A stretch of 64,000 nt of DNA, taken from positions 65,805 to 129,804 of the forward strand of contig NZ_FZOA01000002.1 in assembly GCF_900187985.1 (NCBI RefSeq), in the 5' to 3' direction. The notes under the pieces are model-generated. The model searched no databases. It had not been told where the DNA came from and saw only the letters and a list, made by a program, of their open reading frames with translations. The stretch comes from Methylobacillus rhizosphaerae. Lineage in GTDB: Bacteria; Pseudomonadota; Gammaproteobacteria; Burkholderiales; Methylophilaceae. Positions 12,568 through 34,219 of this stretch are shown piece by piece (within the stretch, counting starts at the first letter, position 1; the number at the start of each line of letters is the position of its first letter). The position numbers and the translations under genes were made by a program.

Positions 12568-12601
12568 GATGAGTTCGACTCACATGAATAATGGAATCAA
12601 G

Positions 12602-16381: not shown

Positions 16382-16452
16382 TTGGGGGATGGCCGTCATC
16401 CTTAGCTGAGATGGCGGCTGTCGTGAGTTTAGTTGTTAAAGGAGACGTACAG

Positions 16453-17676: not shown

Positions 17677-17722
17677 TAGCAGATTTCTTGATTGACGATT
17701 TGAAAGCACAAGGGGAGCAGCC

Positions 17723-18177: not shown

Positions 18178-18231
18178 AGATATTAAGTTAATTGATCACC
18201 CCACTTTTTTAGTTTTTTCAGGAGAAATCTG

Positions 18232-19476: not shown

Positions 19477-19504
19477 GCGTTCAGTGTTTCATTAAGTGCA
19501 ATAC

Positions 19505-19532
19505 CGCAACAACTCTGCAAGGGGTTGTTGCG
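19505..19532 (+). other. Intra-operon stem-loop between urtA and urtB
   Basis: CGCAACAAC (19505-19513) and GTTGTTGCG (19524-19532) form a perfect 9-bp stem with a 10-base loop. No T-run follows, so it is not a classical terminator. Such a stem after the binding-protein gene commonly protects the upstream message and lowers expression of the membrane components; that role is an inference here. Confidence 0.65.
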
Positions 19533-19581
19533 ATGTGTAAGTGCAATAAATCTTCTGTAAGTAAAAGGCTGGAGGCCGATT

Positions 19582-20499
19582 ATGTTTGATTATTCAATGG
19601 CAGAGATAGGCAATATCGTTGTCATGCAGGCTTTCTCAGGGCTGAGCCTGTTCAGCGTGCTTCTCCTGATGGCACTTGGCCTGGCGATCATCTTCGGGCA
19701 AATGGGCGTGATTAACATGGCCCATGGCGAATTCATGGCGATAGGCGCCTATACCACCGTGTTTCTTTCCCGAGTGGCCGAGACTTACGGAATCGTCAAT
19801 TACTACTTCCTGTTTGCGATTGTTGCCGCGTTCATTGTGGCGTTCATTATTGGCTATATCGTCGAGTTTGCCCTGATACGGCACTTGTACAAGCGGCCGC
19901 TCGATACTTTGCTTGCCACCTGGGGGTTGAGTTTGGTGATGCAGCAGATTTTTCGTTCCACTTTTGGTGCCAAGGAGGTTAGCGCCGTGTTGCCAGAATG
20001 GCTCATGGGTTCCTTCCAGCCGACGCCTGATATTGATATTCCGATCAATGGAGTGTTTGTACTGGTGCTGGCCGCGGTGGTCACATTGGGTGTTTTTCTC
20101 TTCATGTTCCGTTCCCGCTGGGGCCTGCGTGTGCGCGCCACGGTGCAGAACCGAGTGATGGCTGGCGCGGTTGGTATCAATACCAAGAAGGTTGACCGTG
20201 TGACCTTTGCGCTTGGCTGCGGTATCGCTGGTGTGGCGGGTGCAGCATTCACCACGATTGCTTCCACCGGCCCTACCACAGGCTCGCTCTACATCGTCGA
20301 CAGCTTCATGGTCGTCGTGTTCGGCGGCGCAGCCAGCGTATTAGGCACGATAGCTTCCGCCTTCGGCATCGCTCAGGCGCAATCCATCCTGCAGTTCTTC
20401 ATGACCAGCTCCATGGGCAAGGTCGCGACTCTGATGGTGATCGTCGGCATCCTCATGATGCGTCCGGAAGGTCTGTTTGCATCCAAAGTACGTAAGTAA
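19582..20499 (+). CDS. urtB: Urea ABC transporter permease UrtB (FmdE)
   Basis: 305 residues with about eight transmembrane helices, of the LivH-like permease branch. Characteristic segments are L-A-I-I-F-G-Q-M-G-V-I-N-M-A-H-G-E-F-M-A-I-G (~32-53) and the cytoplasmic coupling region R-A-T-V-Q-N-R-x-M-A-G-A-V-G-I (~185-200). UrtB lacks the long N-terminal extension found in some homologues. The ribosome site GGAGGCCGATT precedes ATG. It forms the membrane channel with UrtC. Confidence 0.95.
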   Translation: MFDYSMAEIGNIVVMQAFSGLSLFSVLLLMALGLAIIFGQMGVINMAHGEFMAIGAYTTVFLSRVAETYGIVNYYFLFAIVAAFIVAFIIGYIVEFALIRHLYKRPLDTLLATWGLSLVMQQIFRSTFGAKEVSAVLPEWLMGSFQPTPDIDIPINGVFVLVLAAVVTLGVFLFMFRSRWGLRVRATVQNRVMAGAVGINTKKVDRVTFALGCGIAGVAGAAFTTIASTGPTTGSLYIVDSFMVVVFGGAASVLGTIASAFGIAQAQSILQFFMTSSMGKVATLMVIVGILMMRPEGLFASKVRK

Positions 20500-20509
20500 G
20501 GGGAATAAT

Positions 20510-21670
20510 ATGAATGAAACATTAAGCAAAATACTAGGCGGAAAGCAGGGAGCTATCGGCCTTGGTATTCTCGCCGCCCTCATCCTGGTGCTGTTGCCGC
20601 TGGGCTTGGATCCCTTCCGTCTTGGATTGGTCGGTAAGTACCTCACTTATGCCTTCGTCGCGGTCAGCCTGGTGCTGCTGTGGGGTAACGGCGGTATCCT
20701 GAGCCTGGGGCAGGGCATCTTCTTCGGCCTCGGTGGCTATGCGATGGCGATGTTCCTCAAACTGGAGGCCTCCGACCCGGTAAGCACTGCGATCCAGTCC
20801 ACCCCTGGTATTCCTGACTTCATGGACTGGAACCAGCTCACGGCCCTGCCATGGTTCTGGGAGCCGTTCAAGAGCTTGCCGCTCACCATTCTGGCAATCC
20901 TGATTGTGCCAACATTGTTTGCCTTCCTGATTGGTTACGCCATGTTCAAGCGTCGTGTTGGTGGAGTGTATTTCGCCATCATTACTCAGGCGATTGCGCT
21001 GATTCTGAGCATCCTCATCATCGGTCAGCAAGGCTATACCGGCGGCGTGAATGGTATTACCGATCTCAAGACCTTGTTGGGCTGGGATATTCGCACTGAT
21101 AGTGCCAAGTATGTGTTGTATTACGTGAACGCAGCATTGCTGATCGGCTGCATCCTGCTTTCGCGCTATGTCCTCAGCAGCAAGTTCGGCATGCTGCTGT
21201 TGGCGATGCGCGATAAGGAGGAGCGCGTACGCTTCTCTGGTTACGATGTGTCCAACTTCAAGATATTCATCTTCTGCCTGTCCGCCATGATCTCGGCAAT
21301 TGGCGGTGCGATGTTTACTTTACAGGTTGGTTTCATGTCACCCACTTTCATCGGTATTGTGCCTTCGATTGAAATGGTGATCTTCGCAGCCGTGGGTGGT
21401 CGCATGTCCCTGATTGGAGCGGTATATGGCACCTTGCTGGTGAATGCGGGCAAGACCATGTTCTCCGAAACCTATCCAGAGCTGTGGTTGTTCCTCATGG
21501 GTGGCTTGTTCATCGCTGTGGTGATGTTCTTCCCGAATGGTCTGGCAGGTATCTACGACAAGTATGCGAAGAAAGTACCTTTCCTGCGCAAATTGTCTGA
21601 AGAATCACCGAAGGCCAGAAAGGCTGAAACAGTGCTGGTTGAAACCAAGGAAGCGGGGGTAAAAGCATGA
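20510..21670 (+). CDS. urtC: Urea ABC transporter permease UrtC (FmdF)
   Basis: 386 residues, LivM-like permease with about ten transmembrane helices. ATG 20510 follows AAGGGGAATAAT and starts M-N-E-T-L-S-K; longer upstream frames overlap urtB and have no signal. Typical blocks are N-G-G-I-L-S-L-G-Q-G-I-F-F-G-L-G-G-Y-A-M (~63-82), R-V-G-G-V-Y-F-A-I-I-T-Q-A (~148-160), G-G-V-N-G-I-T and A-M-R-D-K-E-E-R-V-R-F-S-G-Y. The stop overlaps the urtD start by 4 bases (ATGA, 21667-21670), giving translational coupling. Confidence 0.95.
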   Translation: MNETLSKILGGKQGAIGLGILAALILVLLPLGLDPFRLGLVGKYLTYAFVAVSLVLLWGNGGILSLGQGIFFGLGGYAMAMFLKLEASDPVSTAIQSTPGIPDFMDWNQLTALPWFWEPFKSLPLTILAILIVPTLFAFLIGYAMFKRRVGGVYFAIITQAIALILSILIIGQQGYTGGVNGITDLKTLLGWDIRTDSAKYVLYYVNAALLIGCILLSRYVLSSKFGMLLLAMRDKEERVRFSGYDVSNFKIFIFCLSAMISAIGGAMFTLQVGFMSPTFIGIVPSIEMVIFAAVGGRMSLIGAVYGTLLVNAGKTMFSETYPELWLFLMGGLFIAVVMFFPNGLAGIYDKYAKKVPFLRKLSEESPKARKAETVLVETKEAGVKA

Positions 21671-22410
21671 GTAACACCGATTTTGTACTGGCAGTCGAAG
21701 ATCTGACCGTATCGTTCGACGGTTTCAAGGCGGTCGACAAGCTCAATATGTACATCGACAAGAACGAACTGCGTGTGGTGATCGGACCTAACGGCGCGGG
21801 AAAGACCACGGTACTGGACCTGATCTGCGGCAAGACCAAGTCCACCGCTGGTTCGATCAAGTTCAAGAACCGCGAGCTGACCAGGCTTTCCGAGCACGAG
21901 ATCGTACGGGCCGGGGTAGGACGCAAGTTCCAGACGCCGTCGATCTACGAAAACCTCACGGTGTACCAGAACCTGGAAGTTTCATACCCCAAGGGCCGTG
22001 GGGTGTTCGGCAGTCTGTTCTTCAAGCGCAGCGATGAAGTGGTGGCACAGGTGCGCAAGATTGCCAGGGAAATCATGATGGAAGACATCCTGGGCATGGA
22101 GGCTGCACTGCTGAGCCACGGTCAGAAGCAATGGTTGGAGATCGGCATGCTGCTGATGCAGGAACCGGAACTGCTGATGCTGGACGAGCCGGTGGCAGGC
22201 ATGAGTGCCAAAGAGCGCGACCAGACGGCGGAGCTTTTGAACCGCATCTGCCAGAATCGCTCCGTGATCGTGATCGAGCACGACATGGAGTTCGTCAAGA
22301 AGATCGCGCACAAGGTCACAGTGCTGCACCAGGGCAAGATTCTTGCCGAGGGAGCCATGGACAAGGTGCAGGCCAACGAAAAAGTGATTGAGGTCTATCT
22401 GGGACACTAA
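21667..22410 (+). CDS. urtD: Urea ABC transporter ATPase UrtD
   Basis: 247 residues, LivG-like. Walker A G-P-N-G-A-G-K-T-T (~39-47), Q-loop in G-R-K-F-Q-T-P-S-I-Y, signature L-S-H-G-Q-K-Q-W-L-E-I-G (replacing LSGGQ, as usual in UrtD), Walker B L-L-M-L-D-E-P, H-loop V-I-E-H-D-M-E-F-V. It pairs with UrtE to power urea import. It is coupled to urtC by a 4-base overlap. Confidence 0.96.
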   Translation: MSNTDFVLAVEDLTVSFDGFKAVDKLNMYIDKNELRVVIGPNGAGKTTVLDLICGKTKSTAGSIKFKNRELTRLSEHEIVRAGVGRKFQTPSIYENLTVYQNLEVSYPKGRGVFGSLFFKRSDEVVAQVRKIAREIMMEDILGMEAALLSHGQKQWLEIGMLLMQEPELLMLDEPVAGMSAKERDQTAELLNRICQNRSVIVIEHDMEFVKKIAHKVTVLHQGKILAEGAMDKVQANEKVIEVYLGH

Positions 22411-22423
22411 TGCATGCAAGATT

Positions 22424-22449
22424 CGGCGCGATGTATTCAAATCGCGCCG
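22424..22449 (+). other. Intra-operon stem-loop between urtD and urtE
   Basis: CGGCGCGAT (22424-22432) pairs perfectly with ATCGCGCCG (22441-22449) around an 8-base loop. It sits in the 66-base urtD-urtE gap, has no T-run, and ends about 28 bases before the urtE start. A processing or stability role is possible. Confidence 0.6.
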
Positions 22450-22476
22450 CTAGCCCGGACAACGAAAGGATAGGAA

Positions 22477-23166
22477 ATGATTGAGATTGAAGACCTGACA
22501 GTCAGCTATGGACAAAGCGAAGTTATTCACGGCATCAGCTTTACTGCTGCCAAGAATGAAACCTTGGCGATCATGGGCCGCAACGGTATGGGCAAGACGA
22601 CTTTGTTCAAATCGCTCATGGGCATCCTGCCAAGCAAGAGCAAGAAAGCCAGCGTGGACGGCGTGGATATCGGCGGCAGCGAAACCTTTCAGCGCGTGCA
22701 GAAAGGTCTGGCCTATGTGCCGCAGGGCCGTATGATCTTCCCGACCATGACTGTGCAGGAAAATATTGAGACCGGCCTGGAAAAATCCAAAAACCGTGAA
22801 ATTCCTGAAGATATATTTGCTCTGTTTCCTGTACTTTATGACATGAGAAACCGCAAAGGTGGCAACCTTTCCGGCGGCCAGCAACAGCAGTTGGCAATCG
22901 CCCGGGCATTGGTAACCAACCCCAAGGTCTTGTTACTGGATGAGCCTACTGAGGGTATCCAGCCCTCCATCATCAAGGACATTGCCAAGGTGCTGAATGA
23001 AATCCGTAAGATGCGCGAGATCACGATCATTGTTTCGGAGCAGGTGCTGAGCTTCACCATGGAGATCGCGGACCGTATCATCGTCATTGACAAGGGCAAC
23101 TTCATTCATGAAAACAAGCGCAGCGAGGTGGATGCGGCCAAGATCAAAGGCTACCTCTCCGTATAG
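22477..23166 (+). CDS. urtE: Urea ABC transporter ATPase UrtE
   Basis: 229 residues, LivF-like. Walker A G-R-N-G-M-G-K-T-T (~35-43), Q-loop Y-V-P-Q-G-R, signature L-S-G-G-Q-Q-Q-Q-L-A-I-A-R, Walker B V-L-L-L-D-E-P-T-E-G-I-Q-P. It completes the five-gene importer urtABCDE. The start has AAAGGATAGGAA upstream. Confidence 0.96.
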   Translation: MIEIEDLTVSYGQSEVIHGISFTAAKNETLAIMGRNGMGKTTLFKSLMGILPSKSKKASVDGVDIGGSETFQRVQKGLAYVPQGRMIFPTMTVQENIETGLEKSKNREIPEDIFALFPVLYDMRNRKGGNLSGGQQQQLAIARALVTNPKVLLLDEPTEGIQPSIIKDIAKVLNEIRKMREITIIVSEQVLSFTMEIADRIIVIDKGNFIHENKRSEVDAAKIKGYLSV

Positions 23167-23167
23167 G

Positions 23168-23281
23168 AAAACAAACAAAACAGCCTGCTGGCGGCGTTGC
23201 GCTCACTTGCCGTACTTATCGTACTGTTTGCGTTCGCGCGCCTTGTCAGCACCGCTGCGCTGGCTTTTTTGATTGTTTTGA
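23168..23281 (+). repeat. Palindromic element copy 2 (between urtE and ureD)
   Basis: Second copy of the element with the conserved apex CTTGCCGTAC / GTACTGTTTGCG. Inner arms GCGCTCA/TTCGCGC and outer arms AAAACAGCC...GGCTTTTTT pair, and the outer 3' arm is T-rich, so this copy could also act as a terminator between the importer and urease genes. It begins 2 bases after the urtE stop codon. Confidence 0.75.
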
Positions 23282-23351
23282 ACGTGAGAGAAGGTTCAAT
23301 AATGAGTGATTGATTTCGAGATGCTGGCGTTTTTATGGCAGGATGCTGCCG

Positions 23352-24209
23352 ATGGATGACTCACAAACAACAAGGATGGCATGGATGAACAAGCGCTGGC
23401 AGGCCATGCTGGCGCTCGATTTTGCAGCCAAGGCCGGGCGGACGACGCTGGTAGGAAAACGCCACCAAGGGCCGCTGGTGGTACAGAAAATGCTTTACCC
23501 GGAAGGAGGCGAGGTCTGCCACGGCATCATCATCCATCCGCCGGGCGGGGCGGCGGGCGGCGACCAGTTGCAATTGCAGGCAACCCTGGGAGCATCAGCT
23601 AAAGCCTTGTTGACTACGCCGGGCGCTGGCAAATGGTACAAGGCTAACCAGTTGAGCGCGAGTCAGAATATATGTTTCCGACTGGCTGCCAATAGCTGCC
23701 TGGAATGGCTGCCGCAGGAGAATATCCTGTTCGACGGCAGCGATGTGCGCTTCAGCAGTGAAATCGACCTGGCTGAGGGGGCCGTGTTCTGTGGCTGGGA
23801 CATTGTTTGTTTTGGTCGCCAGGCACGGGGGGAACAGTGGCGTGAGGGGGAGTTGCGTCAGGTGATGCAAGTGCGGCGTGAAGGGTGCTTGATCTGGAAC
23901 GAGCGCCTGTTTATCCAGCCGCAAAGTCTGCTAATGCGTTCTGGTATTGGTTTGAGGGGTATGCCGGTCAATGGCAGTCTGGTGGTTGCCGCAGGAGCGG
24001 TACCTGCGGAGATTGTCGCAAACTGTCGGGCAATCGAGCCGCGCGGCGATGCGCATTATGGTGTGACTGCCTTGCCGGAGATATTTTCGGCACGTTATGT
24101 TGGTCGTTCCTCGGAGGCGGCAAGGGAGTATTTTGAACAGCTCTGGCAAGTGCTCCGGCCGTGGTATGCGGCACGCCTTGCCATCAGGCCACGGATATGG
24201 AATACCTGA
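23352..24209 (+). CDS. ureD: Urease accessory protein UreD
   Basis: 285 residues from ATG 23352 (AGGA 9 bases upstream); an earlier in-frame start is possible but UreD proteins usually begin close to the W-x-A-x-L-x-L-x-F segment, here W-Q-A-M-L-A-L-D-F. Conserved blocks are Q-G-P-L-V-V-Q-K-x-L-Y-P-E-G (~53-66), H-P-P-G-G (~76-80), G-D-x-L, T-T-P-G-A-x-K-x-Y and L-E-W-L-P-Q-E-x-I. UreD binds apo-urease and forms the nickel delivery complex with UreF and UreG. It heads the urease gene set ureDABC. Confidence 0.93.
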   Translation: MDDSQTTRMAWMNKRWQAMLALDFAAKAGRTTLVGKRHQGPLVVQKMLYPEGGEVCHGIIIHPPGGAAGGDQLQLQATLGASAKALLTTPGAGKWYKANQLSASQNICFRLAANSCLEWLPQENILFDGSDVRFSSEIDLAEGAVFCGWDIVCFGRQARGEQWREGELRQVMQVRREGCLIWNERLFIQPQSLLMRSGIGLRGMPVNGSLVVAAGAVPAEIVANCRAIEPRGDAHYGVTALPEIFSARYVGRSSEAAREYFEQLWQVLRPWYAARLAIRPRIWNT

Positions 24210-24247
24210 GCCTGGCGTTAAATTGAATTGATAAAGAAGAAAGATTG

Positions 24248-24550
24248 ATGGAACTGAGCCCAAGAGAAAAAGACAAGCTGCTGATCTTTACCGCAGCATT
24301 GGTTGCAGAGCGCCGCAAGGAGCGTGGCCTCAAGCTGAATTACCCGGAGTCGATTGCATTCATTAGCGCCGCGATCATGGAGGGCGCGCGTGACGGCAAG
24401 ACGGTGGCGGAATTGATGGGGTATGGCGCGACCTTGCTGAGCCGTGACGATGTGATGGAAGGCGTGCCGGAGATGATTCCAGAGATACAGGTGGAGGCGA
24501 CTTTTCCGGATGGGACGAAATTAGTCACCGTCCACCAACCGATTCCCTAA
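24248..24550 (+). CDS. ureA: Urease gamma subunit
   Basis: 100 residues, the standard size. It starts at ATG 24248 ([11 protein letters not shown]), with a weak AAGAAG ribosome site; an adjacent TTG would add one residue. Conserved [22 protein letters not shown] and T-V-H-x-P-I are present. It assembles with UreB and UreC into the (UreABC)3 enzyme. Confidence 0.97.
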
Positions 24551-24654
24551 GCATGGCGCTGCAAGCGCGGATGGCGGCGTTACAAATTCTTGCCGTACTC
24601 AATATGTACTGTCTGCGAATTTGTGTCTTGCCCTCCACGTTTGCAGCACCATGC
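24551..24654 (+). repeat. Palindromic element copy 3 (between ureA and ureB)
   Basis: Third copy. The apex CTTGCCGTAC / GTACTGTCTGCG is conserved; the inner arm is ACAAATTC pairing with GAATTTGT, and the outer arms GCATGGCGCTGCAA and TTGCAGCACCATGC pair. It starts directly at the ureA stop codon and ends about 50 bases before ureB. It separates two genes whose products are needed in equal amounts, so full termination here would be counterproductive. Confidence 0.8.
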
Positions 24655-24705
24655 TGAGATTGGCGTAAAACGAAAAACAAAACATTGATCATTGGAGTAT
24701 CCAGC

Positions 24706-25014
24706 ATGATCCCAGGTGAAATGAAAATAGACGCAGGCGAAATCCTGCTCAACGACGGGCGCGAGACAGTGACGCTGGAGGTGGCGAATACGGGCGACCG
24801 ACCGATCCAGGTAGGTTCGCATTACCATTTTTACGAGGCCAATGAAGCTTTGTCGTTCGAGCGGCAACAGGCTTATGGCTTCCGCCTCGACATTGCGGCA
24901 GGTACGGCGGTGCGTTTCGAGCCGGGACAGAGCCGTACGGTGCAATTGGTGGCCTTGAGCGGTAAGCGCGAAGTGTATGGCTTTGCTGGCAAGGTGATGG
25001 GAGTGCTGAAATGA
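24706..25014 (+). CDS. ureB: Urease beta subunit
   Basis: 102 residues from ATG 24706 (TTGGAG upstream), beginning with the standard M-I-P-G-E-M; longer upstream frames lack this. Conserved [21 protein letters not shown] and the C-terminal G-F-x-G-K-V-M-G are present. Its stop overlaps the ureC start (ATGA, 25011-25014), coupling the two large subunits. Confidence 0.97.
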
Positions 25015-26714
25015 GTGTGAATATCGACAAGCGTGCCTATGCCGAGATGTTCGGCCCAACGGTGGGTGACCGTGTGCGCCTGGCTGATACCGAGCTATGG
25101 TTGGAGGTGGAGCAGGATTACACCATCTACGGCGAGGAGGTGAAGTTCGGCGGCGGCAAGGTGATACGCGACGGCATGGGGCAAGGCCAAGGTTTGGCGA
25201 GCGAAGTGGCGGATACGGTGATTACCAATGCGCTGATCGTCGACCATTGGGGCATCGTCAAGGCCGATATCGGCATCAAGGGCGGTTATATCTCTGCCAT
25301 CGGTAAAGCGGGAAATCCCGATATCCAGCCTGGCGTGGGGATTGCCATTGGTGCGGGTACCGAGGTTATCGCAGGCGAGGGCATGATCGTTACTGCGGGG
25401 GGCATCGACACTCACATCCATTTCATCTGTCCGCAACAGATCGAGGAAGCATTGATGTCCGGCGTCACCAGCATGATAGGCGGCGGCACTGGTCCGGCGA
25501 CTGGCACCTTTGCCACAACTTGTACGCCCGGCCCCTGGCATATCCACCGTATGTTGCAATCGGCAGATGCGTTTCCGATGAACCTGGGTTTTCTCGGCAA
25601 GGGTAATGCCAGTCTGCCGCAACCGTTGCGTGAGCAGGTCGAGGCAGGCGTGGTCGGGCTCAAGCTGCATGAAGATTGGGGCACGACGCCTGCTGCGATT
25701 GATAATTGCCTGAGCATCGCTGAGGAAATGGATGTGCAGGTAGCGATTCATTCCGATACTCTCAATGAATCTGGTTTCGTCGAGACCACGCTGGATGCGT
25801 TCAAGGGCCGCACTATCCATACCTTTCATACTGAGGGCGCGGGCGGCGGCCATGCGCCGGACATCATCCGTGCGGCGGGATATCCCAACGTATTGCCGTC
25901 GTCGACCAACCCGACCCGGCCTTTTACCATCAACACCATAGACGAGCATCTGGATATGCTCATGGTCTGCCATCACCTCGACCCGGCGATTGCCGAGGAC
26001 GTAGCATTTGCCGAGAGCCGCATCCGTCGCGAAACCATCGCGGCAGAGGATATCCTGCATGATCTCGGCGCGTTTGCCATGATGTCCTCAGACTCGCAGG
26101 CCATGGGCCGCGTGGGTGAGGTGGTGATTCGCACCTGGCAGACCGCGCATAAGATGAAAGTACAGCGTGGCCCGCTGGAGCAGGATAGCGAGCGCAACGA
26201 CAACTTTCGCATCAAGCGCTATATCGCCAAATACACGATCAACCCGGCATTGACGCACGGCATCGCCCACATCGTCGGCTCGATCGAAGTTGGAAAGTTG
26301 GCTGATCTGGTGCTCTGGCGTCCGGCATTTTTCGGCGTCAAGCCTTCCACCATCCTCAAGGGTGGCATGATCGCGGCTGCTGTGATGGGCGACGCCAACG
26401 CTTCCATCCCGACGCCGCAGCCCGTGCATTACCGCCCAATGTTTGGTTCATACGGTGGGGCATTGCAGACTTCGGTGACATTTGTTTCCCAGGCGGCATT
26501 GAGCAACCCGGAAGTGGCGGCATTGAACCTGAAAAAACCATTGGTCGCGGTCAAGGGCACGCGTGGCGTGAAGAAAACGGACATGGTGCACAACGGCTGG
26601 ATGCCGGAGATTGATGTGGATCCGGAAACCTATGAGGTACGGGCGGATGGCATGGTGTTGAGTTGTGAGCCGGCAGAAATACTTCCTCTAGCCCAACGCT
26701 ACTTCCTGTTTTGA
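25011..26714 (+). CDS. ureC: Urease alpha (catalytic) subunit
   Basis: 567 residues. All catalytic residues are in place, offset by one from Klebsiella: nickel ligands His135 and His137 (D-T-H-I-H-F), carbamylated Lys218 (G-L-K-L-H-E-D-W-G), His247, His273, Asp361, and the flap histidine in V-C-H-H-L-D (~321-322). It hydrolyses urea to ammonia and carbamate in the cytoplasm. It overlaps ureB by 4 bases; the palindromic element copy 4 follows its stop codon immediately. Confidence 0.98.
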
Positions 26715-26813
26715 CGCGCACAGACTAGCGTCCCTGGCGGCGTTGCTTTAGCTTGCCGTACTAAGCGTACTGTCTGCGCTAAAGCGCCTTGCCAGGAACG
26801 CCAGTCTGCACGC
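26715..26813 (+). repeat. Palindromic element copy 4 (between ureC and ureE)
   Basis: Fourth and most regular copy. Inner arm GCTTTAGC pairs with GCTAAAGC; outer CCTGGC pairs with GCCAGG and CAGACT with AGTCTG. The apex is again CTTGCCGTAC and GTACTGTCTGCG. It begins at the ureC stop codon and ends about 110 bases before ureE, which is a comparatively long gap within the operon. Confidence 0.8.
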
Positions 26814-26924
26814 TCAAGTAAGAGTTGAGGGTGTTGAAGTGTACGTCTACGGCAAAGCGCCTAGTCAGAATCGCTTTATTGAGCGCTTGTGGTATGACCA
26901 TTTTGGAGAGTTTGAAAACTGAGC

Positions 26925-27419
26925 ATGCTAGGAATCAGCAAGAAAATAGAAACCGCCAGCCAGGTTGACGATCAACTGGTGCTGCCGTTCGACCGCAGAC
27001 AGAAGAGCCGTTTGCGCGTCGTGTTGGCTTCTGGCACTGAGGCGGCTTTGCTGCTGGAGCGCGGCACGGTGTTGCGTGGCGGCGATTTGCTGCAGGCCGA
27101 GGATGGACGTGTGGTGCAGGTGGTTGCTGCAGATGAGCCTGTATTGCGGGTGACGGCAGCGACGCCACGCGAACTGGCGCGGGCGGCTTACCATCTGGGC
27201 AACCGCCACGTGCCGCTTGAGGTTGGTGACGGCTGGCTGCGCCTGGAGCAGGATCATGTATTGCAGGAAATGCTGCTCGGGCTGGGCGTACAGGTGCAAG
27301 GGCAGATGGCCTCGTTCGAGCCAGAGGCTGGTGCATATGGCGGCGGGCATCGCCATCATCATGATGACAGCGATGTGCCTTCGATTCGCCAGCCGGCACG
27401 CCTGAGGATGCATGAATAA
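26925..27419 (+). CDS. ureE: Urease nickel metallochaperone UreE
   Basis: 164 residues. N-terminal peptide-binding-like domain, then the metal-binding domain with L-G-N-R-H-V-P-L-E (~90-98; conserved metal-binding His94 region), Y-L/D-H-V-L-x-E-M-L-type block and a histidine-rich tail (H-R-H-H-H-D-D, ~146-152). UreE delivers nickel to the UreDFG complex. The nearest ribosome-like site (GGAGAG) is about 17 bases from the ATG, farther than usual. The 3' end overlaps ureF by 8 bases. Confidence 0.93.
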
Positions 27420-28095
27420 GTCCCAGTCTCTGGTGCGGCTGCTGCAACTGGCAAGCCCGATGCTGCCGGTCGGGGCGTACAGCTACTCTCAGGGGTTGGA
27501 GTGGGGCATAGAATCGGGCGAGGTGCACGACCTGGTGAGTGCTCAGGCCTGGATAGGTGATGTGTTGCAGGTTTACCAAGGTGGTTTTGAGCTGCCTGTG
27601 CTGAGCCGGTTTTATCGTGCGTGGCAAAGCGGTGATGCTGATGCTTTGAATGATTGGAATGCATTTTACCTGGCTGGGCGTGACAATGCCGAGGCGTTGG
27701 CCGAAAGCAGGCAGATGGGGTATTCGCTCAAGCGCTTGTTGCTGGAGTTCGATGATTTGCCTGATGCCTGGACGATGATGATGGAGGCTTTGCCAAGTGC
27801 TTCATTCCCGGCTCTGTATGCGGGCATCAGTCAGGCTTGGGGTATAGATGAGCAGGATGCCTTGCAGGCATATGCCTGGTCGTGGCTGGAAAACCAGGTT
27901 AGTGCTGCGATGAAGGCAGTGCCGCTGGGACAGGTGGCAGGGCAGAAAATATTGCTGAGTGTGGCGGACAGTATTTCTGTATTGGTGGAAGAGGCAATGC
28001 ACCTACCGGATTTCATGATCAGCAATTTCTGCCCCATCCTGACAATAGCGGGATGCAGGCACGAAACGCAATATAGCCGCTTGTTCAGGTCATGA
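27412..28095 (+). CDS. ureF: Urease accessory protein UreF
   Basis: 227 residues. Starts at ATG 27412, overlapping the end of ureE. Conserved [21 protein letters not shown] (~9-29), the R-Q-M-G-Y-S-L region, and the C-terminal L-F-R-S close to the usual R-L-F-R-S ending. UreF recruits UreG to UreD and gates GTP hydrolysis during nickel insertion. The end lies at an AT-rich interruption before ureG. Confidence 0.94.
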
Positions 28096-28352
28096 TGGTT
28101 TGTTGTATTGCCAGCTACACGATCGTGTTCTACTTGCTGGATTTTTTCGTGTCTATATCTCTTTAACTGTTTAATACAAAAAACCCTGACGTCTATTTAT
28201 AAAAAAATACATTTTTATTATAAATAGACTATAAAAATTTGATTTGTTTTCTAAATTAAAATTCGGGACTGGCAAGGTCTAGGGTAGGAGTGGCCGGACT
28301 TTTGCTTGCAATGCCAGTAACTTTGAATCACAAACCAGGATGGAAGCAAAAG
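28096..28352. other. AT-rich spacer with 12-bp perfect inverted repeat inside the ure operon
   Basis: This 257-base spacer separates ureF and ureG, which elsewhere usually touch. Bases 28150-28265 are conspicuously AT-rich against GC-rich neighbours. GTCTATTTATAA (28191-28202) is perfectly repeated in inverse at 28218-28229 with a 15-base loop. No gene is visible. It may contain an internal promoter for ureG-ureJ or be the remnant of a small insertion. Confidence 0.5.
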
Positions 28353-28964
28353 ATGCAGATTAAGGAGCCTTTACGTGTCGGGATAGGTGGCCCGGTCGGG
28401 TCAGGCAAGACGGCACTCACTTTGGCCTTGTGTCAGCGTTTGCGCGATGTGTACAACATCGCGGTGGTAACCAATGATATTTATACCCGAGAGGATGCCG
28501 AGTTCCTCACGCACAACGAGGCCCTAGCGCCAGAGCGCATTATTGGAGTAGAGACGGGCGGCTGCCCACACACGGCGATTCGCGAGGATGCATCGATGAA
28601 TCTTGAGGCGGTGGCGCAACTGAGCGAGCGCTTCAACCCGCTGGATATCGTGTTTGTCGAGAGCGGGGGAGACAACCTGGCGGCAACTTTCAGCCCGGAA
28701 TTGTCTGACCTGACAATCTACGTGATTGATGTTGCCGCGGGGGAGAAGATTCCGCGCAAGGGGGGGCCTGGTATCACTAAGTCCGATTTGCTGGTCATCA
28801 ATAAGATCGACCTGGCACCCATGGTAGGAGCATCTCTTGAAATAATGGACAGGGATGCGCGCAGGATGCGCGGCGAGCGACCATTTATTTTTACCAATCT
28901 CAAGGATGGTAAAGGACTGGAGGATATCGTCAGTTTTATTGAAAAGCAGGGATTGATGCTCTAG
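28353..28964 (+). CDS. ureG: Urease accessory GTPase UreG
   Basis: 203 residues from ATG 28353, giving the usual start [10 protein letters not shown]. Walker [10 protein letters not shown] (12-20), [11 protein letters not shown] (~68-78) with the nickel-binding Cys-Pro-His, the E-S-G-G-D-N-L block and the N-K-I-D-L-A specificity motif. It is the SIMIBI-class GTPase that carries nickel to urease. It is followed 24 bases later by ureJ. Confidence 0.97.
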
Positions 28965-28988
28965 GGCATGTATTCAAAGGATAATCAT

Positions 28989-29549
28989 ATGAAAATTGCG
29001 CGTTTGGCAGCATTGGGGCTGCTGGTATTTTCTCCTCTGGCATTGGCTCATCCGGGCCATGCTGTTCATGGTTTCTCAGCAGGTTTTATGCATCCTCTGA
29101 CAGGACTGGATCATCTGTTGGTAATGCTGGCAGTTGGCGTCTGGGCCGGTAAAATTGGTGGTGCTGCACGTTGGCAATTGCCGCTGACGTTTGTTGTGGT
29201 TATGGCGCTGGGTGCCTTGCTGGGAATGACGGGCTATAGTCTGGCACCGATTGAGACACTGCTGGCAGCCAGTGTGATGGCACTAGGTGTCTTGCTGGTA
29301 GTCAGCTTCAGGTTACCGCGCTTGTTACAGTTGGGCCTGGTTGCGCTGTTTGCTGTGTTACATGGCCTGGCACATGGTGCCGAACTATCTTCTGGGCAAG
29401 GGGCATACGTCATGCTGGGCATGTTGTTGGCAACGGCCTTGCTACATGGAGTGGGAGTGAGTCTGTCTGCCAGCCGCTTGCCTAGATTGGTGCAATCTGT
29501 CATCGGCTGCACCATGATTGTGCTCGGGGCTTGCTTCCTGGCGGTGTAA
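28989..29549 (+). CDS. ureJ: HupE/UreJ-family nickel permease-like protein
   Basis: 186 residues from ATG 28989, chosen for the AAAGGATAATCAT ribosome site and the signal-like start M-K-I-A-R-L-A-A-L-G-L-L-V-F-S. It has six or so hydrophobic helices, with the diagnostic H-P-G-H (28-ish) and G-F-M-H-P-L-T-G-L-D-H-L-L-V-M-L-A-V-G motif. The conserved histidines are considered metal ligands. It is thought to import nickel for urease or hydrogenase maturation. It closes the urease gene set. Confidence 0.88.
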   Translation: MKIARLAALGLLVFSPLALAHPGHAVHGFSAGFMHPLTGLDHLLVMLAVGVWAGKIGGAARWQLPLTFVVVMALGALLGMTGYSLAPIETLLAASVMALGVLLVVSFRLPRLLQLGLVALFAVLHGLAHGAELSSGQGAYVMLGMLLATALLHGVGVSLSASRLPRLVQSVIGCTMIVLGACFLAV

Positions 29550-29699
29550 TGCTGTAGCCGCCAGCCTGAAGGAAATGCGGCGAGCGTTGATGGGAGGAAG
29601 TTGGGTGCAGATGGTCTCGCCTGTGTCATTATCGTGCGTATCTGGCTTGAAACTTGCTGGAATCAACTCAGGTTTCAACGCAGGAAATGACACGCCTAC

Positions 29700-32600
29700 A
29701 TGGCCATTATTAACGATCAGCACGCGGAAGCTGTAGCAACAGAACCCACCCAGCGCATTGTCAAGGTGCGCCGGGACTACAATACTTGGGTAGTCAACGA
29801 AACCCTGGAGGATTACGCCTTGCGGTTTACGCCCAAGGCTTTCCGGAAATGGTCGATTTTTCGTGTCGCCAATACCGCATTCGGCGCTATTTCTTTTCTG
29901 GTGCTGGAAGCCATTGGTGGCACGCTGGCGGTCAATTATGGTTTTACCAATACGCTCTGGGCCATTCTGGCGATTGCCCTGATCATTTTCATGACCGGCC
30001 TGCCTATCAGTTATTACGCGGCAAAATATGGCCTGGACATGGACCTGCTCACGCGTGGGGCAGGCTTTGGCTATATAGGCTCGACCATTTCATCCTTCGT
30101 CTATGCTTCATTCACCTTCATCCTGTTTGCGCTGGAGGCGGCCATCATGGCCTATGCGCTGGAGCTTTATTTTGAGCTGCCGCTCTATGTGGGATACCTG
30201 GTAAGTGCGTTGCTGATTGTGCCGCTGGTCACGCACGGCGTCACCTTGATCAGCCGTATCCAGATGATTACCCAGCCGATCTGGTTATTGCTGCTGGCAT
30301 TGCCTTACATTTTCATTATCTACAAAGACCCTGGGGTGATCAGCCGCCTAGCGGAATTTTCCGGCAAATCCGGTTATGACGGTGATTTCAACTTGCTGAT
30401 GTTTGGCACAGCCATGGCGGTGGGCATGGCATTAATTCCGCAGATCGGCGAACAGGTGGATTTTCTGCGTTTCATGCCGCAGAAAACCAGGAAGAACCGT
30501 TTTCGCTGGCATTTTGGGGTATTGATGGCCGGGCCGGGATGGATTTCACTTGGCATGCTCAAGATGTTGGGGGGAGCGCTGCTTGCTTATCTGGCGGTCG
30601 AGAATATTCATTCATTTGAACAGGCGGTGAATCCCAACCAGATGTACCTGGCAGGTTTCGGCCAGGTGTTCTCCAACCCTGAAGTCGTGCTGGCGGTCAC
30701 GGTTTTTTTCGTGGTCATATCGCAGATCAAGGTGAACATGACCAATGCCTATGCCGGATCTCTGGCATGGTCCAATTTCTTTGCCCGCCTGACCCACAGT
30801 CATCCGGGGCGCGTGGTATGGGTGGTATTCAATGCCATGATCGCCATTATCCTCATGGAGATGGATGTGTTCCAGGCGCTGGAACAGGTTTTGGGCCTGT
30901 ATTCCAATATTGCGATTTCCTGGATCACGGCCGTGGTGGCTGACCTGGTCATCAACAAACCACTAGGGCTGAGCCCCAAGGGAATCGAGTTCCGTCGGGC
31001 TTATCTTTACGATATCAACCCGGTAGGGGTCGGGGCGATGGTGATTGCTTCATTGCTATCGGTGGCTGCCTTTTTCGGCATATTCGGTCTTGAGGCTGAA
31101 GCATTTTCCGCCATGATCGCGCTGGTCTCTGCACTGGTGGCTTCGCCTTTGATCGCCTGGCTGACAAAGGGAAAATACTATATTGCCCGTCATCCTGTGA
31201 TTTACCAGCCAGGCAGACAGGTGCAGCGTTGTAGCATCTGCGAAAGGGAATATGAAGTCGAGGACATGGCGCATTGCCCGGCATATCAGGGTGCCATCTG
31301 TTCCCTGTGTTGTTCGCTGGATGCGCGTTGCAACGATATCTGCAAGCCGCAAGGCCGTATCGAACACCAATGGCAGCTGGTGATGCGGCGGGTACTGCCG
31401 GAAAAGTGGGCCGAGGTGATGCAGAGTGGTCTGGGACATTACCTGCTATTGATGGCGGTGACACTTGCCTTCCTGAGTGCCTTGTTCGGCTTGATTTATT
31501 TTCATGAGTCCCTGACATTTACCGGCCCCAAGGAGGCTTTGCTGCCCGAGCTGCGCTTGGGATATTTCAAGGTGTTTGCGGCGCTGGCTTTCGCCAGTGG
31601 CATTATTGCCTGGTGGATTGTGCTGACTTCAGAGAGCCGTCGTGTTGCGCAAGAGGAATCCAATCGCCAGACCAACTTGTTGCAGCGTGAAATTGTCCTG
31701 CACCGGCAGACAGATGCGGAGCTGCAACGGGCCCGGCAGCAGGCTGAACAGGCTAACCAGGCCAAGAGCCGGTATATCACTGGAATCAGCCATGAGCTGC
31801 GTACGCCGTTGAACAGTATCCTGGGATATGCGCAGCTGCTGGACAATGATCCTACTATCCCTGACAGCAGGCATCAATCCATCCGTGTCATCCGCCGCAG
31901 CGGGGAGCACTTGCTATCCCTGATAGAAGGCACGCTGGATATTGCACGTATCGAGAGTGGAAAGTTTGCATTTGACCTGAGATTGGTGCGTTTCCCCGAG
32001 TTCATACAGCAACTGGTCAGTATGTTCGAAATACAGGCGCGTAACAAAGGTATCAGTTTCCATTATGAACAGCATGGCGAACTTCCCAAGGTGGTGCGTA
32101 TCGACCAGAAGCGCTTGAGCCAGATATTGATCAACATCCTTGGCAATGCCGTCAAGTTCACCCGGCAGGGCGGCGTTTCCTTCAAGCTGGTTTATGCGCG
32201 GGAAATGCTGAATATTAGTATTGACGACACGGGCCCCGGTATCGCCCCGGAAGAAATCGAGAAAGTGTTCGAACCGTTTGCGAGAGGTTCGGCCGCTACG
32301 AGCAATATTGGAGGCACCGGCCTGGGACTGACTATCAGCAAGATGCTGACTGATCTCATGGGTGGGCAGCTGACTGCGAGAAGTATCCTGGGACAGGGCA
32401 GCCAATTCAGTATCCGCCTGTTTCTTTCACAGGTCAGGGTGGAGGAAGACATTGAAACTGCCTCCATGCCCACACCCATAGCCTATAAAGGAGCACGGCG
32501 CAGGATTCTGGTGGTCGACAATGAGCAGGTGGACCGTGAGCTGCTCAAGCACATCCTGCAGCCGTTGGGATTCGAGGTAGCGGAAGCTGCCAGTGGTCGC

Positions 32601-33122
32601 GAATGCCTGCAGGTCTATACCGGCTTCCGTCCTGATGTGATTCTCATGGATCTTGCCATGCCGGATATGGATGGTTGGGAAGCCAGCTACATGATACGCA
32701 AGGTGCACCAGTCCGATGTGCCGATTGCCATTGTGTCTGCCAACGCCTTTGACAAGGGGCTGGAAAACACGGCAGGCATCCCGGCATCGGATTTTATCGT
32801 CAAGCCAGTGAATGTCATGGAATTGCTACGCTGGGTCGGGGAGCAGTTGAAGCTGGAATGGATTACTGATATTGGGCAGGTCCAGCCCGACGCATCTACT
32901 GTCACGCAGGAACCGGATGTTGAACCGCCGTCCAAGGGCGATCGGGATGAACTAATGGCATTGATCAAGATGGGATATGTGCGCGGGATCAGCCGCAAGC
33001 TTGATGAGATCGGCACAGATAGTCAATATGCGACATTTATTGCGGCCATGCGCAAGTTGTCACAGCAGTTTGAACTGGAAGCAATGCAGAAAATGCTGGA
33101 AGAAGTGAATGATGGCAGTTAG
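29700..33122 (+). CDS. Chimeric receptor: NCS1 permease + 8-Cys cluster + histidine kinase + receiver
   Basis: 1140 residues. Residues ~20-500 are a complete NCS1 (cytosine/purine/allantoin/hydantoin) permease with about 12 helices. An eight-cysteine cluster follows (C511, C514, C526, C534, C537, C538, C544, C548). Two extra helices (~581-605, ~618-643) and a coiled coil lead to HisKA with phospho-acceptor His698 in S-H-E-L-R-T-P, HATPase boxes N (I-L-G-N-A), G1 (D-D-T-G-P-G) and G2 (G-T-G-L-G-L). A receiver domain (~930-1050) has phospho-acceptor Asp984 (L-M-D-L-A-M-P). A ~60-residue helical tail (1080-1140) ends the protein. Transporter-kinase fusions such as CbrA use the permease to sense or import a ligand. 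Position next to urease suggests a nitrogenous ligand (urea, purine or pyrimidine); this is inference. It overlaps the response-regulator gene by 14 bases. Confidence 0.9.
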   Translation: MAIINDQHAEAVATEPTQRIVKVRRDYNTWVVNETLEDYALRFTPKAFRKWSIFRVANTAFGAISFLVLEAIGGTLAVNYGFTNTLWAILAIALIIFMTGLPISYYAAKYGLDMDLLTRGAGFGYIGSTISSFVYASFTFILFALEAAIMAYALELYFELPLYVGYLVSALLIVPLVTHGVTLISRIQMITQPIWLLLLALPYIFIIYKDPGVISRLAEFSGKSGYDGDFNLLMFGTAMAVGMALIPQIGEQVDFLRFMPQKTRKNRFRWHFGVLMAGPGWISLGMLKMLGGALLAYLAVENIHSFEQAVNPNQMYLAGFGQVFSNPEVVLAVTVFFVVISQIKVNMTNAYAGSLAWSNFFARLTHSHPGRVVWVVFNAMIAIILMEMDVFQALEQVLGLYSNIAISWITAVVADLVINKPLGLSPKGIEFRRAYLYDINPVGVGAMVIASLLSVAAFFGIFGLEAEAFSAMIALVSALVASPLIAWLTKGKYYIARHPVIYQPGRQVQRCSICEREYEVEDMAHCPAYQGAICSLCCSLDARCNDICKPQGRIEHQWQLVMRRVLPEKWAEVMQSGLGHYLLLMAVTLAFLSALFGLIYFHESLTFTGPKEALLPELRLGYFKVFAALAFASGIIAWWIVLTSESRRVAQEESNRQTNLLQREIVLHRQTDAELQRARQQAEQANQAKSRYITGISHELRTPLNSILGYAQLLDNDPTIPDSRHQSIRVIRRSGEHLLSLIEGTLDIARIESGKFAFDLRLVRFPEFIQQLVSMFEIQARNKGISFHYEQHGELPKVVRIDQKRLSQILINILGNAVKFTRQGGVSFKLVYAREMLNISIDDTGPGIAPEEIEKVFEPFARGSAATSNIGGTGLGLTISKMLTDLMGGQLTARSILGQGSQFSIRLFLSQVRVEEDIETASMPTPIAYKGARRRILVVDNEQVDRELLKHILQPLGFEVAEAASGRECLQVYTGFRPDVILMDLAMPDMDGWEASYMIRKVHQSDVPIAIVSANAFDKGLENTAGIPASDFIVKPVNVMELLRWVGEQLKLEWITDIGQVQPDASTVTQEPDVEPPSKGDRDELMALIKMGYVRGISRKLDEIGTDSQYATFIAAMRKLSQQFELEAMQKMLEEVNDGS

Positions 33123-34044
33123 AAAAGAAACAGTAGTAGTGTTGATTGTGGATGATGTCCCGGACAATCTGGCGGTGCTGCATGATGCGTTGGATGAATC
33201 GGGCTACATGGTGCTGGTTGCCAACAATGGGGAAGCGGCATTGGCGCGTGCGGAAGAAGCGCGACCCGATATCATCCTGCTGGATGCGATCATGCCGAGT
33301 CTTGATGGTTTTGAGGTTTGTACCAGGCTTAAGGCCAACCTCAATACCCGTCATATCCCGGTGATTTTCATGACTGGGCTGACCGAGTCCGAGCATGTGG
33401 TGGCAGGCTTTGCTGCCGGAGGGGCGGATTACGTCACCAAGCCAATACGTACCACGGAAGTCTTGGCACGCATCAGCACACACCTGCAGGCGTCGCGGCA
33501 GATACACCAGACACGCGGGGCGCTGGATGCATTCGGGCAGGCTGCCATTGCCATATTACCCGGCAGCGGGCGTATTGTCTGGCAGACACCTTTGGCAAGG
33601 GACTGGATGACGCGTTATTTTACGTCTGGCGATCTTGATGCGGAAACGCATACGCCAGCTATATTCCTCAAATGGCTGGATAGCGTGAAAACCAGCGGTA
33701 TGGAGGTGCATCCGCTGACCGTGGTACAGGGAGGCGGGCGCCTGGTCTTTTCCCCGGCAGACCTTGATAGTGAAGAGCAGTGGATTATCCTGTTGCGCGA
33801 AGAATCCGATGCCGCACAGACTGAAGCCCTGATGCAGGCATTCGGCCTGACGCAGCGTGAGTCAGAAGTGCTGTATTGGGTGATTCGAGGCAAGACCAAC
33901 CGTGATATCGGCGATATCCTTGGCACCAGCCCGCGTACCATCAATAAACATATGGAGCACGTGTTTGCCAAGCTGGGCGTTGAAACCCGTACTGCGGCTG
34001 CTTCACTGGCGACAAGTAAAATGCGTAGCGCCAAGGCTGGCTGA
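33109..34044 (+). CDS. LuxR-type response regulator partnered with the chimeric kinase
   Basis: 311 residues. Receiver domain 10-125 with acidic D15/D16, phospho-acceptor Asp59 (L-L-D-A-I-M-P), T-G and K-P (T-K-P-I-R). A ~110-residue middle region has W-Q-T-P-L-A-R-D-W-M, resembling a reduced PAS-like linker. The C-terminal LuxR helix-turn-helix (L-T-Q-R-E-S-E-V-L-Y-W-V...G-T-S-P-R-T-I-N-K-H-M-E-H-V-F-A-K-L-G-V) binds DNA. The start (33109) lies inside the end of the kinase gene, so the two form a coupled cognate pair. Targets are unknown; the adjacent urea/formamide genes are the natural candidates. Confidence 0.9.
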   Translation: MMAVRKETVVVLIVDDVPDNLAVLHDALDESGYMVLVANNGEAALARAEEARPDIILLDAIMPSLDGFEVCTRLKANLNTRHIPVIFMTGLTESEHVVAGFAAGGADYVTKPIRTTEVLARISTHLQASRQIHQTRGALDAFGQAAIAILPGSGRIVWQTPLARDWMTRYFTSGDLDAETHTPAIFLKWLDSVKTSGMEVHPLTVVQGGGRLVFSPADLDSEEQWIILLREESDAAQTEALMQAFGLTQRESEVLYWVIRGKTNRDIGDILGTSPRTINKHMEHVFAKLGVETRTAAASLATSKMRSAKAG

Positions 34045-34110
34045 TGATGAAATGAATACTGTGGCAGAGCTGGTGCTTATAAAATGAGCAGGCTTATTTC
34101 CATGCATCAT

Positions 34111-34170
34111 ATCAGCTACTTAATGGCTTTCTCCCCAGACTGCGCACAAGGTTACCCACAGATTTTGTGA
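34111..34170. repeat. 60-base intergenic repeat, copy B (DnaA-box-like TTACCCACAG)
   Basis: Near-identical to 7690-7748: shared blocks ATCAGCTACTTA, TCCCCAGACTGC, CACAA and TTACCCACAGATTTTGTGA, with differences only in the short middle stretch and at single positions. The CACAA/TTGTG arms flank the DnaA-box-like TTACCCACAG. It lies between the response regulator and the efp terminator. Confidence 0.6.
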
Positions 34171-34188
34171 TGCAGTATGACAGCCAAT

Positions 34189-34219
34189 AAAAAAAGGGAA
34201 CCCATGGGTTCCCTTTTTT
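34189..34219. terminator. Bidirectional intrinsic terminator between the response regulator and efp
   Basis: AAAAAGGGAACCCATGGGTTCCCTTTTT is a perfect palindrome: a GC-rich GGGAACCC/GGGTTCCC stem with A-run before and T-run after. It would end transcripts from the response regulator (plus) and from efp (minus), which converge here. Confidence 0.92.

Follow-up and report, generated by a model that had tools for sequence, protein, structure and literature searches.

In the parts of the published work drawn on here, several bacterial histidine kinases carry a transporter as their sensor. In CrbS/CrbR (MxtR/ErdR) of Vibrio and Pseudomonas a membrane domain of transporter fold is fused to a hybrid histidine kinase, and the CrbR site of Pseudomonas is a 17-base imperfect palindrome at the targets, many copies of which start with TAC and pair a GAC arm with a GTC arm (PMC5715377). 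CbrA of the CbrA/CbrB system in Pseudomonas, with transporter and kinase in one chain, is called a rare transceptor in a preprint (PMC13022988), and the title of another paper speaks of 'Transport and kinase activities of CbrA' (PMC7096432). RpuS/RpuR of Sinorhizobium fredii includes a transporter-kinase controlling expression of the symporter MctP (PMC9100948), while in Ks-Amt5 of Candidatus Kuenenia a nitrogen-compound transporter has been recruited as the sensor of a histidine kinase (PMC5764959). Here we describe a hybrid histidine kinase with a membrane domain related to NCS1 transporters, together with its LuxR-type response regulator, encoded beside urea and amide genes in a 64,000 nt stretch of the Methylobacillus rhizosphaerae genome (contig NZ_FZOA01000002.1, positions 65,805 to 129,804; hereafter the window). 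Transporter-fused kinases as such are already known, and the NCS1-type fold is added beside the SLC5 and Amt kinases found in the literature.

CrbR is also a LuxR-type regulator and its site is about as long as the palindrome described below, but CrbS/CrbR has an SLC5 domain, a STAC linker and acetate as its signal, whereas the window kinase has an NCS1-like domain, an eight-cysteine linker and linkage to urea/amide genes. CbrA carries SLC5 and STAC domains, is connected with histidine and is not known to have a receiver, and CbrB belongs to another type of regulator than the one in the window; RpuS/RpuR differs by SLC5/STAC domains and a pyruvate symporter. The transporters Mhp1 and CodB (NCS1, TC 2.A.39), with nucleobases and hydantoins as substrates, share the fold of residues 34–491 of the window kinase, and profile homology extends over 460 columns with PF02133 members, but they have neither kinase nor cysteine module, and the window family is missed by the Pfam NCS1 model. 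Ks-Amt5 is distinguished by its Amt/Rh fold, ammonium as ligand and its anammox host (PMC5764959). Among the matches listed from openly available full texts, considered by their titles and the starts of their abstracts, neither an NCS1 histidine kinase nor this regulator of urt/fmd/ure genes is described, the closest papers concerning SLC5 and Amt kinases.

The best explanation of the locus is a two-component system measuring urea or short-chain amides and switching on a porin-fmd-urt-ure block through a palindromic operator, to which we assign a probability of about 0.78. It builds on the predicted domains, the NCS1-like fold and ancestry, the conserved catalytic residues, the gene linkage and a palindrome whose presence follows that of the kinase. 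According to this model the NCS1-fold domain, kin to permeases of urease and formamidase operons, would bind urea or a short amide, and its binding state would be relayed to HisKA by a linker rich in cysteines, which probably binds zinc, and by two additional transmembrane helices, altering the phosphorylation of His698. The LuxR-type regulator would then receive the phosphate of His698 by way of Asp984, directly, or by both routes, and it would bind the 18-bp palindrome TACGTC-N4-GACGTA and, presumably as an activator and not a repressor, switch on the porin-fmdA-fmdB-urtABCDE block, plus the ure genes where these follow; in some relatives it may control the kinase gene too. A preliminary description of the stretch had proposed a transceptor-type sensor of a nitrogenous compound adjusting fmd/urt/ure expression, and both linkage and palindrome support this proposal, of which we infer the ligand, the transport and the DNA binding.

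The kinase gene (29700–33122, forward strand, 1140 aa from an ATG start) begins 150 bp 3' of ureJ (28968–29549), and its open reading frame (ORF) shares 14 nt with that of the 311-aa regulator (33109–34044, forward strand). Pfam searches revealed HisKA with His698 (PF00512, residues 688–754, E 5e-17; 31761–31961), HATPase_c (PF02518, residues 802–909, E 9e-26; 32103–32426) and a receiver with Asp984 (PF00072 Response_reg, residues 936–1043, E 3e-22; 32505–32828), that is, the phospho-His, ATPase and phospho-Asp elements of a hybrid histidine kinase, and in the partner protein the receiver (Response_reg, residues 11–122) and GerE helix-turn-helix (247–301) of a LuxR/NarL-type response regulator. 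Upstream of HisKA and on the same strand are encoded the NCS1-fold sensor domain (residues 34–491; 29799–31172), a predicted metal-binding linker with eight cysteines (residues 508–550; 31221–31349) and two further predicted transmembrane helices (residues 577–646; 31428–31637). In the predicted structure, helices 577–607 and 611–676 lie between cysteine module and HisKA, their hydrophobic, transmembrane look being judged by eye, and the stretch from transporter to HisKA that holds these elements gave no Pfam match (whether Pfam includes a STAC model was not checked).

Conservation was followed in 88 full-length sequences, consisting of the window kinase, 78 of 80 loci from a genome scan (in L063 and L070 the contig stops within the kinase gene) and nine plasmid records. 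His698, Asn816, Asp843, Asp984 and Lys1035 are invariant in all 88, and so are the cysteines 511, 514, 526, 534, 537, 538, 544 and 548. A comparison of the cysteine module with known structures using Foldseek gave mostly RING/PHD-type fingers as top matches, none of them significant (best E 0.39), and the conserved cysteines would be consistent with bound zinc or another metal. A histidine phosphotransfer (HPt) domain is unlikely in the kinase because downstream of the receiver there is no position at which the majority of the 88 sequences have His, and by the same observation the protein was rejected as an ArcB/TorS-type kinase with its own HPt. NCBIfam matches of the kinase half to TorS, ArcB or similar proteins likewise reflect only the common kinase core. 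The regulator gene lies immediately 3' of the kinase gene in 75 of the 80 loci and is displaced in two (L035, L039), the contig stopping too early for a count in the other three (L053, L063, L070). The preliminary description had listed the 1140-residue protein directly after ureJ, the 14-base overlap with a LuxR-type regulator, the cysteine cluster and HisKA, HATPase and receiver with His698 and Asp984, and all of these were recovered.

The same description had spoken of a complete NCS1 transporter. The Pfam NCS1 model PF02133 was unmatched at E ≤ 1 by the window kinase and by all of 15 aligned N-terminal halves of relatives, it matched nothing in the organism's own genome, and a sequence search of the Protein Data Bank (PDB) with the transporter domain returned nothing. 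This silence was not taken as absence, and structure and profile comparison were used instead. A structure of residues 1–677 predicted with AlphaFold2 (AF2) from 45 sequences (mean pLDDT 73.6, pTM 0.75) matched CodB best (Z 30.7, 394 residues, 3.9 A), followed by Mhp1 (Z 29.5, 435 residues, 3.9 A), the best entry outside NCS1 reaching Z 24.5. In a profile-profile comparison using hhalign, 14 kinase sensor domains aligned with an NCS1 profile, built from seven PF02133 members of other genomes of the class, with 99.8% probability (E 6e-27, 460 columns), while control profiles of 12 sequences each gave 0.1% for SSS and 0.1% for APC; an SLC5 (SSS) transporter domain was rejected on these figures. 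Six kinase-free homologues behaved alike (NCS1 99.6%, SSS and APC controls 0.5% and 0.2%). On the predicted-structure matches and the profile-profile result with its controls, the membrane domain is assigned to a divergent branch related to NCS1 (TC 2.A.39 in the wider sense). The transporter thus stands by predicted structure and profile, while it is not visible to PF02133 or to the PDB sequence search, and of the two profile matches anticipated earlier, the one of residues 688–1043 to HisKA, HATPase_c and receiver was found directly and the one of the N-terminal half to NCS1 by hhalign only.

In a scan of one genome per species at least 589 genome stretches with a homologue were confirmed among 596 pattern matches, and gene linkage was counted in the best 80 of these 589, those nearest the window, a choice that favours near relatives. 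These 80 come from Methylophilaceae, Oxalobacteraceae, Comamonadaceae, Rhodocyclales, Stutzerimonas, Achromobacter and others, and in 64 of them urea/amide genes (ureABC, urt or fmdA) were found within ~10 kb of the kinase; with overlaps, 46 have at least one of ureA, ureB and ureC (at least 55% identity), 10 close urt genes, 24 a more distant UrtA and four fmdA. The kinase is divergent from ureA in many Comamonadaceae loci and lies 3' of ureJ in several Methylophilaceae loci, as it does in the window. In a sample of 369 genomes of the class a homologue was present in 18 (own genome included), strong ureC being found in 16 of these 18 against 69 of the 351 others (Fisher 2e-9), and 12 of the 18 have the homologue on one contig with ureC, urtA or fmdA, one of the 12 (G339) holding the kinase-free form only.

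Among plasmids 532 records matched, 506 of them covering at least 80% of the query. Nine kinase-bearing regions were opened, and in all seven that are annotated the pair stands beside urea/amide genes. In plasmids of Methylobacterium, Burkholderia vietnamiensis, Azospirillum and Peteryoungia it is divergent from urtABCDE-type genes, fmdA and an fmdB-like gene, with an aliphatic amidase in two of the four and a nitrilase-family gene in one. In an IncFIB plasmid of Klebsiella pneumoniae (L126:10494-16231, the regulator found by tblastn and missing from the gene table) it is divergent from urtABCDE-formamidase, in a Thioclava plasmid it adjoins urtABCDE, and a Sphingobium plasmid has the order ureDABC-ureFG-accessory gene-kinase-regulator, near that of the window. 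On an unannotated Acinetobacter baumannii plasmid, searched by tblastn, a kinase-free homologue adjoins the kinase and no urea gene was found. Linkage thus recurs in three proteobacterial classes (Alpha-, Beta- and Gammaproteobacteria) with varying gene order. Had the homologues lain mostly away from urea/amide genes, the preliminary description would have counted this against itself; the neighbourhoods compared (64 of the 80 closest loci, 7 of 9 kinase-bearing plasmid regions, 12 of 18 class genomes) are mostly linked to such genes, and the test did not refute it.

Two published gene clusters are similar. The Dechloromonas genome paper reports a 1131-aa histidine kinase and a 308-aa receiver protein beside UrtA (PMC2907700), sizes that fit the kinase/regulator pair, the comparison being one of sizes only and not of sequences. 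A plasmid urea-uptake cluster is named in Klebsiella ST307/CG307 papers (PMC5506382, PMC13060141), and the urtABCDE-formamidase cluster of the K. pneumoniae plasmid resembles, by description, the one of ST307 (PMC5506382). A term search found neither 'histidine kinase' nor 'two-component' in PMC13060141, and neither 'histidine kinase' nor 'response regulator' in PMC5506382.

To the linkage is added a putative operator. From intergenic regions between the kinase and its divergent gene the palindromic motif ATACGTCAATTGACGTAT of width 18 was learned, using 57 of 63 distinct regions with the window and its family excluded; left out were L103, L169 and L170, whose places the set already contained, the two L161 rows, from G441, which no other row represents, and one of the pair of L122 rows, and one training row (L173), a permease mistaken for a kinase, is without kinase and scores -1.1. 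The log-likelihood was 326 against 51–73 in eight resampled sets at equal search effort, a value inflated by near relatives that stayed in training, and reliance was therefore placed on tests outside the training regions. Within the window a score of at least 15 is reached once, by GTACGCAATATGACGTAT at 15108–15125 (score 21.7, next 10.5), lying 108 bp 5' of the likely start (15233) of a porin gene that heads the collinear block. The exact pattern TACGYN6RCGTA likewise has a single occurrence in the window, and 100 shuffles gave none.

By type of region, a score of at least 15 was found in 14 of 16 regions where the kinase is divergent from urtA and in all four where it is divergent from a kinase-free permease. 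When 31 of 100 genomes matched in a test on fmdA of the window's family and 30 loci were used (own included; a broken copy of G002 was omitted), a site of at least 20 lay within 1.5 kb 5' of fmdA in 30/30, with 0/30 in gene-body and 3' controls. Over the 1.56 Mb of the 80 loci, 29 sites score at least 18 and all 29 are situated 5' of kinase, urtA, porin, fmdA or ureA, with 2–159 bp from site centre to estimated start; 21 of them are outside the training regions. Of the loci with an unlinked kinase, 14 of 16 were taken (L063 and L088 omitted), two of them from genomes lacking a strong UrtA; in 11 of the other 12 genomes a site of at least 15 was identified no more than 1.5 kb 5' of urtA, nine within 200 bp, one at 1.31 kb and one doubtful (L257, 15.7 at 1.39 kb), while weak UrtA paralogues had none (0/18). 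No such site was found at urt genes of kinase-less genomes in either of two sets (0/10 and 0/29), and of kinase-positive regions beside the ten kinase-less ones three of four reached 15, these overlapping the training set. A high-scoring site also lies between urtA and kinase on the K. pneumoniae plasmid, and in four relatives one is placed 5' of the kinase gene alone. By these comparisons the palindrome at the target promoters goes with the kinase, and fmd/urt/ure gain support as the targets suggested earlier.

A number of observations weigh against this reading. Among promoters where the kinase is divergent from ureA only 6 of 36 have a site of at least 15, and no such site precedes the kinase gene in the window. 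In the organism's own genome the core pattern occurs at 6 places against 11 for the reversed control, showing no enrichment, and a site at L326:1500 (C4:31404) scores 22.2, above the 21.7 of the window; because of this control and this site the pattern alone cannot single out the window genome-wide. In kinase-positive genomes of the class only 5 of 11 regions upstream of urt hold a site of at least 15 (two of the regions are short and three belong to second urt copies), which compared with 0/29 in kinase-less genomes gives a Fisher value of 7e-4 for regions that are not phylogenetically independent. No urea gene is present within ~10 kb in 16 of the 80 loci, several of them on short contigs, a Sinorhizobium plasmid region (unannotated, tblastn) showed neither urea gene nor kinase-free homologue, and G197 carries two kinase copies (L137, L138) without a strong urease or UrtA match. 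The compared genomes are related, those without the kinase probably standing farther from the training set, and so none of the counts are independent trials; the score thresholds were set once the scores had been seen. Since nucleobases, allantoin or hydantoins are the cargo of those NCS1 proteins whose function is known, the ligand could also be another ureido compound.

As to two further sites of at least 15 in the own genome, the one at L326 is surrounded by restriction/phage-like ORFs and is probably due to chance, while another (L330:1500-1517, C11:176389, score 16.4), 66 bp 5' of an ORF for a CynX/NimT-like transporter (below the NCBIfam cut-off), is possibly an extra target or chance. 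The six class genomes without linkage are G092, G112, G188, G197, G257 and G300, with short flanks in G112 and G188, and among ten proteins encoded beside unlinked kinases at five loci (GGDEF/EAL, K+ transporter, QueC-like, ornithine cyclodeaminase and others) no common theme was seen. In one genome (G309; L108, L119) two kinase copies are separated by under 10 kb, urtA adjoining one of the two. Stop codons break the kinase and fmdA copies of a relative of the same genus (L019 and G002:C26), where the system may therefore be in decay.

Homologues of permease length without kinase were found in related surroundings. One lies directly 3' of ureG in urease operons of Klebsiella pneumoniae (L172:7956-9563), others 5' of ureEFG-ureJ-ureDABC in Acinetobacter plasmids (L128:7947-9554), divergent from fmdA-fmdB in Moraxella, 5' of an aliphatic amidase in Arthrobacter and 3' of ureDABCEFG in six genomes of one family, while a Streptomyces copy is without urea/amide neighbours. 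In genus g216 the kinase/regulator pair is divergent from urtABCDE-fmdA-fmdB-amiE in two genomes and from permease-fmdA-fmdB-amiE in three, and a similar transporter swap was seen in another family (G323); that the permease takes over the position of urtABCDE in this way is the best clue to a substrate in common. The kinase of Acinetobacter baumannii has the permease as its divergent neighbour, a palindrome site lying in between, and by analogy with RpuS/RpuR the NCS1 kinase may control the divergent permease both there and in g216. NCBI names these proteins hypothetical, allantoin permease or cytosine permease, the only NCBIfam match of the Acinetobacter permease being weak (NF008241, 19.7 bits, cut-off 326). 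From their positions the NCS1-type proteins of urease operons are likely urea permeases, and an NCS1-related urea/amide permease family is probable. Only distantly related (21% identity over residues 9–498) is a Rhodococcus 'allantoin permease' (L130:3031-4494) encoded next to an amidase; the permease itself has no Pfam match.

A tree was built from 43 kinases, 16 permeases and three NCS1 proteins, and in it the permeases group in a single clade (100/99) that is nested among the kinases. One of the clade's two branches holds four fmd-linked permeases that keep all eight cysteines, and the urease-linked permeases read (Klebsiella, Acinetobacter, G339) keep four. Loss of the kinase from a receptor may have given rise to the permeases, a direction that is not claimed as shown, since the branch leading to the NCS1 outgroup is very long and the position of the root uncertain. 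When 14 kinases were aligned with six permeases, 90 positions were the same in at least 13 of the kinases and in all six permeases, 39 of them polar or aromatic, and 22 positions differed consistently, as for example Glu70 of the kinases against Phe of the permeases in the predicted helix 67–80.

The positions in common bear on the question whether the membrane domain is also a working transporter, a true transceptor in which the signal follows transport and not mere binding. The 90 conserved positions and the description of CbrA, an SLC5 kinase, as a transceptor (PMC13022988; PMC7096432) favour this, but the 22 consistent differences, among them Glu70, the separate transporter supplied at urt-linked and permease-linked loci and the Amt-type ammonium sensor kinase, which binds without translocating (PMC5764959), speak for sensing alone, and we regard a working transporter as a real possibility to which we incline less than to its opposite. 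Kinship in fold and profile with CodB and Mhp1, together with the NCBI labels on some kinase-free homologues, could instead mean that the domain senses a classical substrate (uracil, cytosine, allantoin or hydantoin) which yields urea or ammonia, the urea/amide genes being controlled downstream. No gene for pyrimidine, allantoin or hydantoin breakdown appeared in the (incomplete) gene tables read, though, the kinase-free form replaces urtABCDE before formamidase and amidase genes and sits inside urease operons, and the label of the Acinetobacter permease has only the weak NF008241 match behind it, which makes a classical ligand unlikely in our judgement.

That the palindrome is bound by another fmd/urt regulator, such as FmdB or a nitrogen regulator, with the kinase pair merely travelling along, would agree with an fmdB-like gene in the window block and with a paper in which FmdB is said to regulate formamidase positively (PMC13209695). 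The site is not accounted for by FmdB, because 8 of the first ten kinase-less urt loci hold fmdA and an fmdB-like gene and none of them has a site of at least 15; the site is moreover found between kinase and kinase-free permease in all four such regions used and 5' of the kinase gene alone in four relatives, and sigma-54 patterns in the window stay at chance level, so we give another regulator poor odds, slightly poorer than those of a classical ligand. Least probable by far is an ordinary hybrid kinase of unrelated role in an accidental neighbourhood: linkage is absent in 16 of the 80 loci and in six of the 18 genomes of the class, but it is repeated in three proteobacterial classes with different gene orders, and 11 of 12 unlinked genomes with a strong urtA still have the site upstream (L257 among the 11 being doubtful). 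The urea/amide two-component system acting through the palindrome is therefore preferred. A wider version of it, held only tentatively and with the balance of our opinion against it, is that a whole NCS1-related subfamily, unseen by the Pfam NCS1 model, specializes in urea and short amides: the members with a kinase would be transceptors acting on urt/fmd/ure via the TACGTC-N4-GACGTA operator, and those without one, among them the product of the gene that follows ureG in Klebsiella, would be urea/amide permeases of a new class able to replace UrtABCDE.

In the window the block controlled according to this model runs on the forward strand from the predicted operator, an 18-bp palindrome to which no strand is assigned. 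Its first gene encodes a porin-like outer membrane protein (ORF 15197–16381, likely start ATG 15233, Pfam Porin_O_P E 6e-6), and a related porin heads the urt block in several relatives as well. Then follow fmdA of the formamidase/acetamidase family (16411–17676, PF03069 E 6e-186), a gene for an fmdB-like zinc ribbon protein (17723–18073, TIGR02605 58.5 bits, cut-off 31.3), the urtA/fmdC-type gene for the substrate-binding protein of a urea/amide ABC transporter (18232–19476, TIGR03407 UrtA 517.7 bits, cut-off 492.75), urtB, urtC, urtD and urtE (19582–23166, BPD_transp_2 twice and ABC_tran twice) and ureD, ureA, ureB, ureC, ureE, ureF, ureG and ureJ (23310–29549, Pfam UreD, Urease_gamma, Urease_beta, Urease_alpha, UreE, UreF, cobW/UreG and HupE_UreJ). 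From Pseudomonas, a 2026 plasmid paper presents a locus of the order amiE-fmdA-fmdB-urtABCDE that lacks amiC/amiR (PMC13209695). Scans of 14900–34200 for promoters and terminators were at chance, as was the search for sigma-54 patterns, and therefore no promoter is claimed. Upstream of the block, at 10048–14431, a gene for a TonB-dependent receptor stands directly before one encoding a phytase domain, which suggests phytate use.

Urea and small amides are common nitrogen sources, and the literature listed, at the level of titles and starts of abstracts, showed no dedicated regulator of these urt/fmd/ure blocks. The system described here offers a putative regulator, operator sequence and sensor domain for a widespread gene block, and flags a probable urea/amide permease family presently labelled cytosine or allantoin permease. 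The paired sensor and permease homologues would furthermore provide material for asking how a transporter becomes a receptor, or the reverse.

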